Assembly: GCA_018651745.1 (NCBI GenBank)
Contig: JABIDL010000040.1
Location: 25,848 to 89,847 of the forward strand
Length of the DNA: 64,000 nt
Reading direction: 5' to 3'
Source: Candidatus Neomarinimicrobiota bacterium
GTDB lineage: Bacteria > Fidelibacterota > Marinisomatia > Marinisomatales > TCS55
Within the stretch, counting starts at the first letter, position 1; every line of letters starts with the position of its first letter. The translations under genes were made by a program, and so were the position numbers. Positions 1,603-10,239 of this stretch are shown in pieces. The notes under the pieces were generated by a model. It had not been told where the DNA came from, ran no database searches, and saw nothing but the letters and a program-made list of their open reading frames with translations.

Positions 1603-1619
1603 GAATTTGAAGATAGATT

Positions 1620-1646
1620 TAACTTTTCTACAAAGCTCAACGTCTA
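1620..1646 (+). promoter_or_regulatory. Candidate ECF-type promoter P1
   Basis: TAACTT (1620-1625) and CGTCTA (1641-1646) separated by 15 bases. This resembles the -35 AAC / -10 CGTC pattern of many ECF sigma promoters. It is the first copy of an imperfect 40-base direct repeat (1620-1659 and 1720-1758). An ATG 11 bases downstream (1657) opens a 21-codon ORF that ends at 1722, inside the second copy. Confidence 0.4.
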
Positions 1647-1719
1647 AATTCGCAAAATGTTAGAAAAACAAAAATCCGATAACAACTTTAAAGGCTGTAT
1701 TATTTCTGTGAAAACAGTT

Positions 1720-1746
1720 TAACCTTTTGCAAACTCCAAGGTCTAA
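1720..1746 (+). promoter_or_regulatory. Candidate ECF-type promoter P2, next to the sigma gene
   Basis: TAACCT (1720-1725) and GGTCTA (1741-1746) with a 15-base spacer: the second copy of the repeat, lying directly before the sigma factor gene. A transcript would start near 1752, leaving a leader of fewer than ten bases before the ATG at 1761. Autoregulation by the encoded ECF sigma is the natural reading, since ECF factors commonly drive their own operons. Confidence 0.45.
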
Positions 1747-1760
1747 ATCGGCAACCATGA

Positions 1761-2294
1761 ATGAAAACAGACAAAACCGATATCGAACTAATTCAAGAAT
1801 TCCAAGATGGGAACGAGGAATCGTTTAATGCACTTGTTGAAAGACACCTATCAAATACTTACGGATTTTTCGTTAAAATCTGTCAAAACGAAATGGATGC
1901 AGAAGATCTTGCACAGGATGTTTTCCTCAAAATGCACCGCGCACTCAAAAAGTTCCGGTTTGAGTCAGCTTTTACAACCTATCTCTTTCGTGCAAATAGA
2001 AACATGGCCAATTCCTACATCAGGAATAAATGGTGGCGCGGGCTTCTTAATCTTGAGGACACACCGGAAAAGGGCGAATGGGACACATCGCACGAAACGG
2101 ACTGGCGAAAACAAGAACTTTGGAATGCAGTTGCAAAACTTCCTAAACTTCAGCGGAATGTGGTTATGATGCGGATTGCTCAAGAATTGCCATTCAAAGA
2201 AATTTCCGCTATCTTGAATACAACAGAAAGTTCGGCGAAAACCAGCTATCATTATGCGGTAAAAACATTAAAAATTTGGTTAGAAAATGAATGA
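1761..2294 (+). CDS. ECF-subfamily RNA polymerase sigma factor
   Basis: Alternative sigma factor of the extracytoplasmic-function group, 177 aa, which directs RNA polymerase to a small regulon in response to an envelope signal. Region 2 covers about residues 20-85: the NALVERHLSNTYGFFVKI helix, the DAEDLAQDVFLKMHRAL segment and an FTTYLFRANRNMANSYIRNK stretch. Region 4 covers about 115-172 (LPKLQRNVVMMRIAQELPFK, then a helix-turn-helix ending SSAKTSYHYAVKTLK). There is no region 1 or 3, as expected for ECF factors. The ATG at 1757 is out of frame, so 1761 is used; no Shine-Dalgarno is visible. The end overlaps the next gene by 8 bases, implying co-expression with that membrane protein, its likely anti-sigma factor. 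Confidence 0.93.
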   Translation: MKTDKTDIELIQEFQDGNEESFNALVERHLSNTYGFFVKICQNEMDAEDLAQDVFLKMHRALKKFRFESAFTTYLFRANRNMANSYIRNKWWRGLLNLEDTPEKGEWDTSHETDWRKQELWNAVAKLPKLQRNVVMMRIAQELPFKEISAILNTTESSAKTSYHYAVKTLKIWLENE

Positions 2295-2661
2295 TTTTGA
2301 AACAAAACTGAAACAGGCCATGCAGACAGAAAACTCTGTTCCCGATGCAGATGCGTTTATCAGTGATTTGCATTCAGAACGGAAAAATCGACAGTCTGCC
2401 CGAAGGCAGTTTTATAACGGAATTGTCGCCGGGATGCTCATCCTATCATTTGGTTTGTTCACAGTTTCTCAACTTGGAACCAATCCGGCAGAATTAATTG
2501 TGTATGACTCCTTTGAAATCATGAGCGAAGAGGATCGGATCGAAGAAGAATTTCTTAGAGAAATGGCAGTGTATTATTTAGAAGAATCAGATGATATTTG
2601 GGATACTTATGCCTTATTAAATGATTCAGAATTATTTAACGAAAAATGGGAGAATCAATAA
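2287..2661 (+). CDS. Small single-pass membrane protein, probable anti-sigma factor
   Basis: A 124-residue protein with a charged N-terminal segment of about 43 residues that should be cytoplasmic, one hydrophobic span at about 44-62 (GIVAGMLILSFGLFTVSQLG), and a very acidic C-terminal part predicted periplasmic. It overlaps the ECF sigma gene by 8 bases and has the topology of an anti-sigma factor. It lacks a recognisable zinc-finger (HxxxCxxC) motif, so the call rests on position and topology, not family similarity. Its small size and unstructured-looking N-terminus recall CnrY-type anti-sigma factors, which also pair with a Spy/CpxP-like periplasmic sensor such as the product of the next gene. 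Confidence 0.65.
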   Translation: MNDFETKLKQAMQTENSVPDADAFISDLHSERKNRQSARRQFYNGIVAGMLILSFGLFTVSQLGTNPAELIVYDSFEIMSEEDRIEEEFLREMAVYYLEESDDIWDTYALLNDSELFNEKWENQ

Positions 2662-3158
2662 TGAAGATAATGAAACTATTGGTATTGTCCTTATGTGTAG
2701 TGTCATTAGGAATTGCACAAGATGATCACCAATCAAAAAAACAAGAAAAAATGGAAATGATGGCCGTATGGAAGTTAACAGACCATTTGGATTTAACTAG
2801 CAAACAGGCAGAAACATTTTTTCCTCGGTTCAACGAACAAGATGCGACGAAAAAGAACATTCGCGAACAACAGGTAGCGATTTATAAACAGCTGAAAGAA
2901 AAAGATAAAATATCACAGTCAGATGTTGATGCCGCTATGAAACAATTGGTTGGGCTTGAAAAACAGATGTTAGAAGCAAGACAATCTTTTGTTAAAGGAA
3001 TGAAAGATATTCTTTCCCCCGAGCAGCAACTCAAGCTTCTCACATTTCGGGGCGAGTTTATGAAAGAAATGAAAGGTCACTTGAAAGATCAAAAAGGTCG
3101 CGGAAAGAAACGTGGAATGAAACGCGGAATGAATCAAGGACGTGACAGAAGATATTAA
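2661..3158 (+). CDS. Spy/CpxP-like periplasmic protein (LTXXQ family type)
   Basis: A 165-residue exported helical protein. Residues 1-20 form a signal peptide (MKIMKLLVLSLCVVSLGIAQ). The rest is charged and helical: LDLTSKQAETFFPRF near the start and ILSPEQQLKLLTFRGEF near the end are the paired LTxxQ-like segments seen in Spy, CpxP, ZraP and CnrX proteins, which act as periplasmic chaperones or metal/stress sensors. The C-terminus is rich in Lys, Arg, Gly and Met (RGKKRGMKRGMNQGRDRRY). Start 2661 is preferred over the in-frame ATG at 2646 because it forms a TAATG coupling with the previous stop, has GGGAG upstream and puts the signal peptide at the terminus. Position after sigma and anti-sigma suggests a sensor or a regulon product. 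Confidence 0.75.
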   Translation: MKIMKLLVLSLCVVSLGIAQDDHQSKKQEKMEMMAVWKLTDHLDLTSKQAETFFPRFNEQDATKKNIREQQVAIYKQLKEKDKISQSDVDAAMKQLVGLEKQMLEARQSFVKGMKDILSPEQQLKLLTFRGEFMKEMKGHLKDQKGRGKKRGMKRGMNQGRDRRY

Positions 3159-3177
3159 TCACAATAAGGAGTCAAAA

Positions 3178-4215
3178 ATGAAACGGTTTACAATTACACT
3201 TTTAAGTTTGGGCATGTTCATCGTAGGGTGTGACCAATTTGGAAACAATGAAACTGGTTCTTCCACTGAGGAGGAATTGCTTGCCTTAATCAATGCTGAC
3301 GAAGCGTTTACGTTTGATGGTCTTGATGACGAAGGCGATGAAGAAGGTGATTATACGGAAGGAATTGAAGTAGATGCTGGCTTTCGCATGATGGGCGATA
3401 CCCTTTTACCGGGTGATAATGTTAAGCTTCGTTTTGGGAGAAAGATTGATAGGGAAGCAAGTACACGGGATGTGACTTTTGAAGTTAATGGCGACACTGC
3501 TGTTGGAACCGTCGCGTTGTCACTTGTTGGAACCTTTTATGTCAAATCCATTGAATGGGGTGAAGACAGCACGACATCTTCCGGATATTCCATTACAAAT
3601 ATTGACACCTTCAGCAAGGATTTTACAAGTGAGTTCAATCGTAAAGTTCGCTTTATCCAAGTTGCTGATGCCAATAATCCCGATGGTTACCACTGGAAAA
3701 TTGATGCACTCACGATGGGAATGGGAAGCAGCGGAACCAAACTAAGTATCACCAATATCGCATTTTACAACAATGCAGATTCCACCGGTGAAGCTGTTTT
3801 ATCTTATGCAGCTGATACTGCTGGCGATATTTATTTTAGTAGGGATTCTCTTCCATCGTTTACCTACAATTGGGGGTCTCAAACGACCTACCGAGTAGAG
3901 GTCACCGTATCGAATGCGGATCCAATTCTAATCTTAAACGATCAGGATAGCGGAGAAAAGGTTTCAATGCATTATGGTGTTTCACGCCGGTTTAAAGCTC
4001 GACGAGGAATGAGCGACGCTGGAACATTCGGCGATGTAACAGCAAGTGACAATGTGTTTACACGCTTATGGAGACCTCATCGGATACGATTTGGTTCACA
4101 TTCCATGATTGCGAGAATGTTTTTTAGCGCTGTTGACAACAATACATTGTTTGTGAGCGATGGTGGCTATAATACATCAATTTGGACGTTTCCTTATCAA
4201 GTAACATCCAACTGA
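3178..4215 (+). CDS. Exported lipoprotein of unknown function
   Basis: A 345-residue lipoprotein. The signal peptide ends in a lipobox (LGMFIVGC) with lipidated Cys at residue 18, followed by a very acidic linker (DDEGDEEGD) and a mostly beta, Thr/Ser/Asp-rich body. I recognise no family. The start at 3178 has a clear AAGGAG ribosome site and places the signal peptide at the N-terminus; a longer in-frame start at 3142 would bury it. It is the last gene of the ECF operon, just before a terminator, so it probably belongs to the same envelope response. The acidic segment after the Cys could bind cations, which would fit metal sensing, but that is speculation. Confidence 0.75.
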   Translation: MKRFTITLLSLGMFIVGCDQFGNNETGSSTEEELLALINADEAFTFDGLDDEGDEEGDYTEGIEVDAGFRMMGDTLLPGDNVKLRFGRKIDREASTRDVTFEVNGDTAVGTVALSLVGTFYVKSIEWGEDSTTSSGYSITNIDTFSKDFTSEFNRKVRFIQVADANNPDGYHWKIDALTMGMGSSGTKLSITNIAFYNNADSTGEAVLSYAADTAGDIYFSRDSLPSFTYNWGSQTTYRVEVTVSNADPILILNDQDSGEKVSMHYGVSRRFKARRGMSDAGTFGDVTASDNVFTRLWRPHRIRFGSHSMIARMFFSAVDNNTLFVSDGGYNTSIWTFPYQVTSN

Positions 4216-4236
4216 TTTCTAACTTAAGGTTTGTTA

Positions 4237-4273
4237 AAATGCCGGGTGGATTAATTCATCCGGCATTTTTTTT
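4237..4273 (+). terminator. Rho-independent terminator after the ECF operon
   Basis: ATGCCGGGTG / CATCCGGCAT pair into a 10-bp stem with one G-U wobble and an 8-base loop (GATTAATT), followed by eight T. It lies 22 bases after the lipoprotein stop codon and closes the operon. Confidence 0.9.
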
Positions 4274-8285: not shown

Positions 8286-8314
8286 AAAAGCCTCCGCAAT
8301 ACGGGGGCTTTTTT
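8286..8314 (+). terminator. Rho-independent terminator after pntB
   Basis: AAAGCCTCCG and CGGGGGCTTT pair over 10 bp (one G-U) around a 5-base loop (CAATA), with six T at the end of and after the right arm. Confidence 0.9.
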
Positions 8315-8376
8315 ATTTTAAATATGATGGAGTCTTTTGGTCGAATTTTTACTGTGAATTAGGTAGTTTTAGGTTC

Positions 8377-10239
8377 ATGAACTTCCGCTACTACATCTCA
8401 TTTGCCATACTTGTGGTCCTTGCGCTTTCAGCCTGTGCCCCAATTCCTGTTGTTAAAGAGAAATATGCTTCATCGGGGCAAAAGAAAAAAATTCTCATGA
8501 TTAAAAAAGGAAGCGACTCTTCTGCAGTAGTGAAAGAAATTGAATATTATGAAAATGGACAGGTTTCACTCGAAGTGGAAAGGAAGGGAATCAAACGAGA
8601 CGGGAAGTACCTTGAGTTTTATCCGGATGGTATAGATCGCATTGTAGGGAAATATGCAGACCACATGATGCATGGGAAATGGCAATATTATTCGAAGAAT
8701 GGCAGGTTGGATTCTGTAAGGACATATAAAAATGGTTTGCTTCATGGACAATGGCAAAATTATAACAACGGACTTCTGATAACGCAGAAATCCTATAAAA
8801 AACATAAACGAGATGGGAAATACCTTGAGTTTTATCCGGATGGGAATGATTATTTCATCGGAAAATATTCAGACAATTTGAGGGTTGGGAAGTGGAAATT
8901 CTTTTCTAAAAAAGGTGACATAGATTCAATAAGAACGTATCAGAATGATATGCTTGATGGGAAATGGAAAAATTACGAAAATGGTATTTTGATTGAGCAG
9001 AAATCCTATAAAAAATATCGGTTAGATGGTAAATATTTTGATTACTATCAAGACGGATCGAAAAAAACCAAAGGTCAATACATAAATAATGTACCCGATG
9101 GTAAATGGATGTGGTGGCATAATGATGGAAGTAAACTCAGGCTCGTATCCTATGAACAAGGAATTAAATCGGGAAAAGCTTCGATATGGAGAATCGACGG
9201 ATTGCTGTCATTTTCTGGTGAATATTATATGGATAATCGGCAGGGAGAATGGAAATGGTACGGTGAAAAAAAGAAAGTTGATTCGCTGGTAACATATCAA
9301 GATGACATTCCACATGGTCCCATCAAAAAATGGTATAAAAATGGTATTCTTGCAATGGAAGGTCAATTTACAAATGGTCTTGCAGATGGAACGTGGAAAT
9401 GGTATTCAAAATCAAGATTGGATGATGGGATTGCGAATATATTCTCTAAAAAAGGATTACTAGATTCGTTAAAAACATTCTCAAATGGCACTCTAAACGG
9501 TCCATATAAAGTGTATCATTCCAACGGGAATCTAGCATTGAGTCAGAATTACGTTCAGGCAACATTAGAAGGATTGATGCAGTCTTATTACTTATCTGGC
9601 GAAAAGGAATCTATTTGGACCTATGATCGCGGAGCACGAACCGGTCCGTATATTATGTGGAGACCCAGCGGAGAAATGGAAGAAGAAGGGTCATTTTTTC
9701 AGGATCAGCCTGAAGGAAATATCCGCCGATGGTATTCTACGGGAATGCCGTCATCCGATGCGGGTTTTTTAGGCGGAACATTGCACGGTGTTTTTAGAGT
9801 GTATAGTCCATCCGGCGCATTAATCCGTGAACAGTTCACGCTGAAAGGTATTCCACATTCCCGTTTTGAATATCATGGTAATTCCCGATTAAAATCTATC
9901 CACATATTTGATGGTGAAGAAATCGTTATGGAATTCAAATGGAATTCGATGGGTGTAGAAAAAATCCTGGCTAACAATCTTGAAGGGACTTATACCGAAG
10001 AAGAACTCTACCCTAATGGAAATGTCCAAAAACAAGTCAGGTATAAAAGAAAGAAAAAACACGGCATTTCCTGGACGTTTGGGCAGGGAAGGGAATTGAT
10101 ATCTTTGGAAATATTTGATCTGGGTAAAAAAGTCATTTCACGGAAATGGGGTACGGAAAAAGAATTATCAAAAGATACACTTTACAAAAAGGGAAAACAG
10201 GTATTAGTGATTATTCCGCCGGATAAAGAAGAGGATTAA
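8377..10239 (+). CDS. MORN/YwqK-type repeat lipoprotein
   Basis: A 620-residue lipoprotein. The signal peptide ends LALSAC, with lipidated Cys at residue 20. Nearly all the rest is a tandem array of roughly a dozen beta-hairpin units of the MORN_2 (YwqK) type, with the recurring core YYxNGxxxxxxxYxxGxxDGxW, for example residues GKYLEFYPDG and GKWQYYSKNG. Units 2-5 are near copies at higher order: the motif DSxRTYxNxxxxGxWxNY returns every two units. Such repeats form elongated surface-exposed beta sheets; the function is unknown and antitoxin labels attached to the family are not evidence of a toxin system here. It starts at an ATG with a weak AGG upstream, between the pntB terminator and mscS. 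Confidence 0.85.
   Translation: MNFRYYISFAILVVLALSACAPIPVVKEKYASSGQKKKILMIKKGSDSSAVVKEIEYYENGQVSLEVERKGIKRDGKYLEFYPDGIDRIVGKYADHMMHGKWQYYSKNGRLDSVRTYKNGLLHGQWQNYNNGLLITQKSYKKHKRDGKYLEFYPDGNDYFIGKYSDNLRVGKWKFFSKKGDIDSIRTYQNDMLDGKWKNYENGILIEQKSYKKYRLDGKYFDYYQDGSKKTKGQYINNVPDGKWMWWHNDGSKLRLVSYEQGIKSGKASIWRIDGLLSFSGEYYMDNRQGEWKWYGEKKKVDSLVTYQDDIPHGPIKKWYKNGILAMEGQFTNGLADGTWKWYSKSRLDDGIANIFSKKGLLDSLKTFSNGTLNGPYKVYHSNGNLALSQNYVQATLEGLMQSYYLSGEKESIWTYDRGARTGPYIMWRPSGEMEEEGSFFQDQPEGNIRRWYSTGMPSSDAGFLGGTLHGVFRVYSPSGALIREQFTLKGIPHSRFEYHGNSRLKSIHIFDGEEIVMEFKWNSMGVEKILANNLEGTYTEEELYPNGNVQKQVRYKRKKKHGISWTFGQGRELISLEIFDLGKKVISRKWGTEKELSKDTLYKKGKQVLVIIPPDKEED

Follow-up and report, generated by a model that had tools for sequence, protein, structure and literature searches.

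The locus described here raises the question of what is sensed, and how expression is controlled, by a set of four genes encoding a sigma factor, a membrane protein, an exported Spy-like protein and a lipoprotein. The set lies in a 64,000-nt window (the whole stretch of DNA that was analysed) from a Neomarinimicrobiota genome of 1.86 Mb. In the original prediction, it was regarded as a possible envelope or metal-stress sensing system reminiscent of CnrYXH of Cupriavidus. We consider it probable that the module is an autoregulated envelope-stress (extracytoplasmic) sigma switch of Neomarinimicrobiota. The four ORFs, their overlaps and the terminator that had been predicted were all located at the positions below, which also include two promoter motifs absent from the original prediction.

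1613..1648, + strand: upstream copy of the promoter motif, orphan (ATTTAACTTTT..CGTCTAAAT, 15.5 bits)
1713..1748, + strand: predicted autoregulatory promoter motif of the sigma operon (GTTTAACCTTT-GTCTAAAT, AAC to GTC spacer 17, 28.3 bits)
1757..1759, + strand: out-of-frame ATG, 4 nt before the sigma start, at the predicted mRNA 5' end, opening a 23-codon overlapping ORF
1761..2294, + strand: ECF sigma factor gene (177 aa, regions 2 and 4, RpoE/AlgU-like)
2287..2661, + strand: gene for a single-pass membrane protein, the putative anti-sigma factor (124 aa)
2661..3158, + strand: exported Spy-like protein gene (165 aa)
3178..4215, + strand: lipoprotein gene (345 aa)
4236..4269, + strand: intrinsic terminator at the end of the operon (15 pairs, loop of 4, T run)

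The genes are tightly packed. The sigma and membrane protein ORFs share 8 nt (membrane protein start at 2287), the stop codon of the membrane protein gene (2659-2661) shares 1 nt with the Spy start at 2661, and 19 nt separate the Spy stop from the lipoprotein start, which is preceded by an AAGGAG-type ribosome site. Neighbourhood conservation had been proposed as a check on the prediction, with orthologues that separate in other genomes as the contrary outcome, and the gene set held together. A profile search placed the membrane protein in 34 of 40 genomes of the family and, across the phylum Neomarinimicrobiota, in 106 of 245; the lipoprotein turned up in 101 of the 245. Of the 60 genomes in which both were found, 59 had the two genes on the same strand and no more than 1.5 kb apart, usually separated by some 550 nt occupied by the Spy gene; the single exception had them on two different contigs. 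In the first 39 loci, as far as the contigs reach, the membrane protein gene is flanked by the sigma and Spy-like genes; in 20 distant loci, drawn from other families and classes and from deeper branches, sigma adjoined the membrane protein in all 20 and Spy in 19. In 20 further lipoprotein loci, mostly from genomes whose membrane protein has diverged beyond the reach of the profile, sigma and/or Spy stood alongside in 18. The lipoprotein profile found no match in genomes of genera g2, g3 and g5 among those listed, and tblastn found no lipoprotein in the examined loci of g6 and g7. By this gene order, the four-gene set is a conserved operon unit and not a chance arrangement; it stays together in most of one bacterial order and recognizably throughout the phylum Neomarinimicrobiota, and the lipoprotein, judged by these searches, belongs to it in many lineages, not all.

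Several loci showed variations on this layout. Genome G015 carries a second anti-sigma gene in tandem, between the first copy and Spy (L009:1495-2250), and a deep-branching member of the phylum has two consecutive Spy genes, the second behind its own copy of the promoter motif described below (L198:1710 and 3213). In the three g5 genomes examined, a different lipoprotein gene, also behind its own motif copy, is located upstream of the sigma gene (L054:490-1437, L055:1609-2556 and L062); its product has helical repeats that resemble Spy by eye and gave no meaningful Pfam match.

By its profile matches, the sigma factor is an ordinary ECF factor, RpoE/AlgU-like and far from CnrH. It is short and contains sigma-70 regions 2 and 4 only, and Pfam matched both (PF04542, region 2, 5.7e-15; PF08281, region 4, 2.5e-11) with TIGR02937 above its cut-off, which bears out the ECF identity originally assigned. 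When its profile was compared with solved structures, AlgU/SigH (best, 3.8e-25), SigW and RpoE were the closest, at about 1e-20 to 4e-25 for the group, while CnrH appeared at rank 21 (1.1e-6).

From its position and topology, we infer that the membrane protein is the inhibitor of this sigma factor. A short N-terminal D..F...LH..R region, basic beside the membrane, is followed by a membrane span at about residues 44-62 and an acidic periplasmic tail that ends in Y..DLA.YLL..DDIW. In the homologue alignment, W105 of the tail is invariant and D103 nearly so, and the net charge of the tail is -11 to -23 in 20 of 20 homologues. The structure model (mean pLDDT 73, pTM 0.29) has a helix at residues 2-12 and then a long helix at 21-63 that enters the membrane span, a predicted layout like that of CnrY, in which the first helix contacts sigma region 4 and the second contacts region 2 (PMC7406223). 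Pfam gave no match for the window protein and noise only for 20 homologues, in agreement with the earlier statement that it carries no known family motif. Neither a recognizable anti-sigma domain nor the HxxxCxxC or another Cys motif of the class I (zinc-binding, RseA-like) anti-sigma factors was found in it. Because a class I anti-sigma factor is encoded near only 6% of Bacteroidetes ECFs (PMC7406223), small inhibitors outside the known classes may be frequent in groups of this kind.

The Spy-like protein has the conserved motif MEMM.VWKLTE.L.LT..QAE.FFP and a basic C-terminal tail; the net charge of its last 45 residues is +4 to +15 in 21 of 21 homologues. The window protein scored 15.9 and 16.7 bits against LTXXQ (PF07813) and Metal_resist (PF13801), below the curated cut-offs. 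Metal_resist was the most frequent Pfam match, hit by 17 of the 21 homologues (best 8e-9), and, with the short, CnrY-shaped anti-sigma model, it would fit a metal-sensing system of the CnrYXH type, in which the Spy-like protein binds metal and passes the signal to the anti-sigma factor. We regard such a system as very improbable, because the features expected of it are missing. No conserved His triad or CnrX histidine site was found in the 21 homologues, and at the sole column where a His is well conserved (18 of 21) the window protein has Gln; the sigma factor is not CnrH-like, the gene order is unlike that of CnrYXH, and neither the window's operon nor the predicted targets examined include an efflux gene. 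The originally proposed likeness to CnrYXH would hold for the anti-sigma layout predicted by the model and not for metal sensing, and of the envelope or metal stress first suggested, envelope stress is probably right, since the predicted regulon described below consists of envelope genes.

The lipoprotein has, throughout the family, an invariant lipobox Cys18, an acidic linker and an all-beta body. An acidic cluster had been placed just after the lipidated Cys; the strongest one lies about 30-45 residues after that Cys. There was no real Pfam match, no sequence relative in the PDB and no Foldseek hit at E <= 0.001, as expected from the earlier remark that it matches no recognized family; on the basis of these searches, it is a new family without annotation. 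The best VIA-align hit was the Wzt C-terminal domain (Z 7.4), and RhoGDI scored about 7; the alignments cover mainly residues 186-345, and values of this size fall within common beta-sandwich arrangements and name no family. Matches to TerD and TerB were at noise level.

A promoter motif, TTTTAAC(C/T)TTT followed by GTCTAA with 17-18 nt from AAC to GTC, lies just before the sigma gene. The matrix was built from 34 sites, and all 36 sigma leaders scored in the family and order carried the motif (21.8-33.4 bits), most of which had also trained the matrix. A fairer test is provided by the distant loci, where a site above 12 bits was present in 17 of 20, nearly all before the sigma gene, with two of these loci probably from training-set genomes. 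On both strands of the 64-kb window, only the two operon sites exceeded 10 bits, and one site reached 18 bits in the reversed-sequence control; among the 42 window ORFs of at least 150 aa, the sigma gene alone exceeded 12 bits. No motif above threshold preceded several deep-branching sigma operons. Because nearly all sigma genes of this operon in the order are preceded by the motif, autoregulation is strongly predicted, that is, the sigma factor would transcribe its own operon. Elsewhere in the window, a weak match (8312-8347, 9.0 bits) stands ahead of a gene for a 620-aa repeat lipoprotein (8377-10239).

The orphan motif copy lies 100 nt upstream of the operon promoter and remains in the window without a gene between the two (1648-1712). 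In two sister species, uvrD and sigma are separated by an additional small Spy-like gene, which has the same motif copy in front of it (L031:4500-4930 and L032:3150-3580). By comparison with these relatives, the window's genome has evidently lost the extra Spy-like gene recently and kept its promoter.

The sigma leaders have a second conserved feature. An out-of-frame ATG occurs in 45 of 50 distinct sigma leaders against 12% expected by chance, a count that does not stand for 45 independent events because the leaders share common ancestry. Its usual offset from the sigma start is exactly 4 nt (ATGNATG, the middle base being free), with 5 or 7 nt in some, and the pattern covers several families (the window, L001-L039 and L184-L203); the length of the overlapping ORF that it opens is not constant. 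Since the end of the -10 element is usually only 11-14 nt from the sigma ATG, a leader on the sigma message is expected to be absent or very short, and transcription is predicted to start at the out-of-frame ATG. The leaders of the stand-alone Spy targets are longer and ordinary-looking. It is possible, if on the unlikely side, that the 5' end of the sigma mRNA falls on, or only a few nucleotides from, a retained decoy AUG that draws ribosomes from the true start and limits sigma synthesis, which would put a brake on a regulator that amplifies itself. On one alternative reading, the out-of-frame AUG aids ribosome binding on leaderless messages.

The search for a wider regulon was exploratory, with targets found by the motif and then tested in orthologues that share ancestry and include genomes where the motif was first seen; within that frame, three groups of genes stood out. 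The motif lies 54-67 nt upstream of the stand-alone Spy genes of genus g5 in 9 of 9 cases. For a gene encoding an outer-membrane protein with carboxypeptidase-regulatory and TonB-plug domains, 23 of 30 genomes had a site that scored above the 99th percentile of shuffles (21.1 bits in the window's own genome), and for a peptidase-MA/beta-propeller protein gene 25 of 30 did, against 0 of 30 for each in the reverse-strand control. The peptidase-MA target is less sure because its sites in g5 deviate in the -10 part, reading ..CGTCGAAAT, and no convincing site was found before this gene in the window's own genus; another ECF sigma factor could be responsible, and for distant targets in general the motif attribution may mix in other ECF sigma factors. 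When the window's own genome was searched with looser patterns, the hits were limited to those of the operon, the one ahead of the outer-membrane protein gene, a weak one at a YHYH gene and one more with no plausible gene. YHYH-domain genes lie behind the motif in a few genomes, including the window's own (L145, G000:C22:4050-4075; L065; L211), and were rejected as a core target, the motif being present before only a few members.

The predicted regulon comprises envelope genes, not efflux genes. The frequency of the motif before the TonB-plug protein gene (23 of 30 genomes) could also mean that this protein is the true client of a nutrient or TonB-type cell-surface signalling system. This we consider highly unlikely: the anti-sigma factor has no FecR-like domain (no match in the window protein or its 20 homologues), no such receptor is encoded in the operon, and the other predicted targets include chaperones.

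An envelope-stress switch built from these parts might work as follows. In the CnrY manner, the anti-sigma factor would bind sigma via two short cytoplasmic helices. CpxP acts on CpxA by docking, keeping it inhibited until unfolded proteins draw CpxP away; similarly, in an unstressed cell the basic Spy-like protein would sit on the acidic periplasmic tail of the anti-sigma factor and stabilize the inhibited state, and unfolded envelope proteins would pull it off the tail. The anti-sigma factor would then release sigma, or be cleaved to free it, and the freed sigma would transcribe its own operon and the envelope regulon. Newly made Spy would rescue clients and reset the switch, with the lipoprotein produced simultaneously as an envelope-anchored effector. 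The sensor role of Spy in this scheme rests on charge and operon logic, and we propose it tentatively, as close to an even call.

Spy may be only an output. The same switch could employ the Spy-like protein purely as an output chaperone, with sensing by the acidic tail itself or by RseA-like regulated proteolysis, which we take as a serious possibility somewhat short of even. The extra Spy genes would then be plain regulon members under the same motif, the conserved tail residues (W105 and D103) would have a purpose of their own, and spy of Phocaeicola has been described as an induced gene and not as a sensor (PMC13114119). Against an output role alone, the operon Spy stays beside the anti-sigma gene in nearly all genomes, bears its own conserved motif, unlike stand-alone Spy, and has a charge opposite to that of the tail.

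Neomarinimicrobiota occur widely in the ocean, almost all of them uncultured, and none of the papers searched dealt with sigma and anti-sigma factors in Marinimicrobia; literature searches on LTXXQ proteins and on leaderless messages likewise yielded no relevant paper. Now that the operon and its promoter motif are defined and a regulon has been predicted, the switch can be searched for directly in existing metatranscriptomes, the conserved decoy start codon can be tested by reporter, and a conserved lipoprotein family without annotation has been identified. The decoy AUG brake, if true, and the unclassified lipoprotein family would make up a new wiring of envelope-stress control. The kind of system is itself already known from CirY/CirZ-Spy; new are its spread across the phylum, the lipoprotein of no known family, the regulon predicted for it and the out-of-frame AUG in the sigma leaders. 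Our results suggest that the coupling of Spy to an ECF switch, recently reported from gut Bacteroidales, reaches a second phylum.

CirY/CirZ-Spy is the nearest tested system, and CnrYXH is a weaker comparison. In Phocaeicola vulgatus, deleting the anti-sigma factor CirZ raises expression of cirY, spy and two downstream genes (PMC13114119, 2026). As here, an ECF sigma factor, an anti-sigma factor, a Spy-like chaperone and downstream envelope genes form one operon and a second Spy operon or gene exists, a likeness in gene content and arrangement (PMC13114119); the order sigma, anti-sigma, Spy on one strand occurs in the window, the first loci and the distant loci alike. CirY raises its own operon once the anti-sigma factor is removed (PMC13114119), whereas own-operon control is here predicted from the motif. 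The Phocaeicola system belongs to another phylum, and its downstream genes encode a carbohydrate-binding hydrolase and a LysM/glucosaminidase protein instead of this lipoprotein (PMC13114119). CnrYXH of Cupriavidus metallidurans shares with the module an ECF sigma factor, a periplasmic partner of the Spy/CnrX superfamily (a probable member here) and the short two-helix membrane anti-sigma layout (predicted here), and differs in gene order, in its His metal site (absent here), in sigma type and in its efflux genes (none here). The RpoE-RseA system of E. coli likewise has an ECF sigma factor, to which the present one is related, and the E. coli Cpx system (CpxP, Spy) has a Spy/CpxP-type chaperone as an output and possible negative regulator. 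The RpoE system uses RseA/RseB, not Spy, and Cpx is a two-component system; in the module described here, unlike either, the Spy logic would be wired to an ECF sigma factor.
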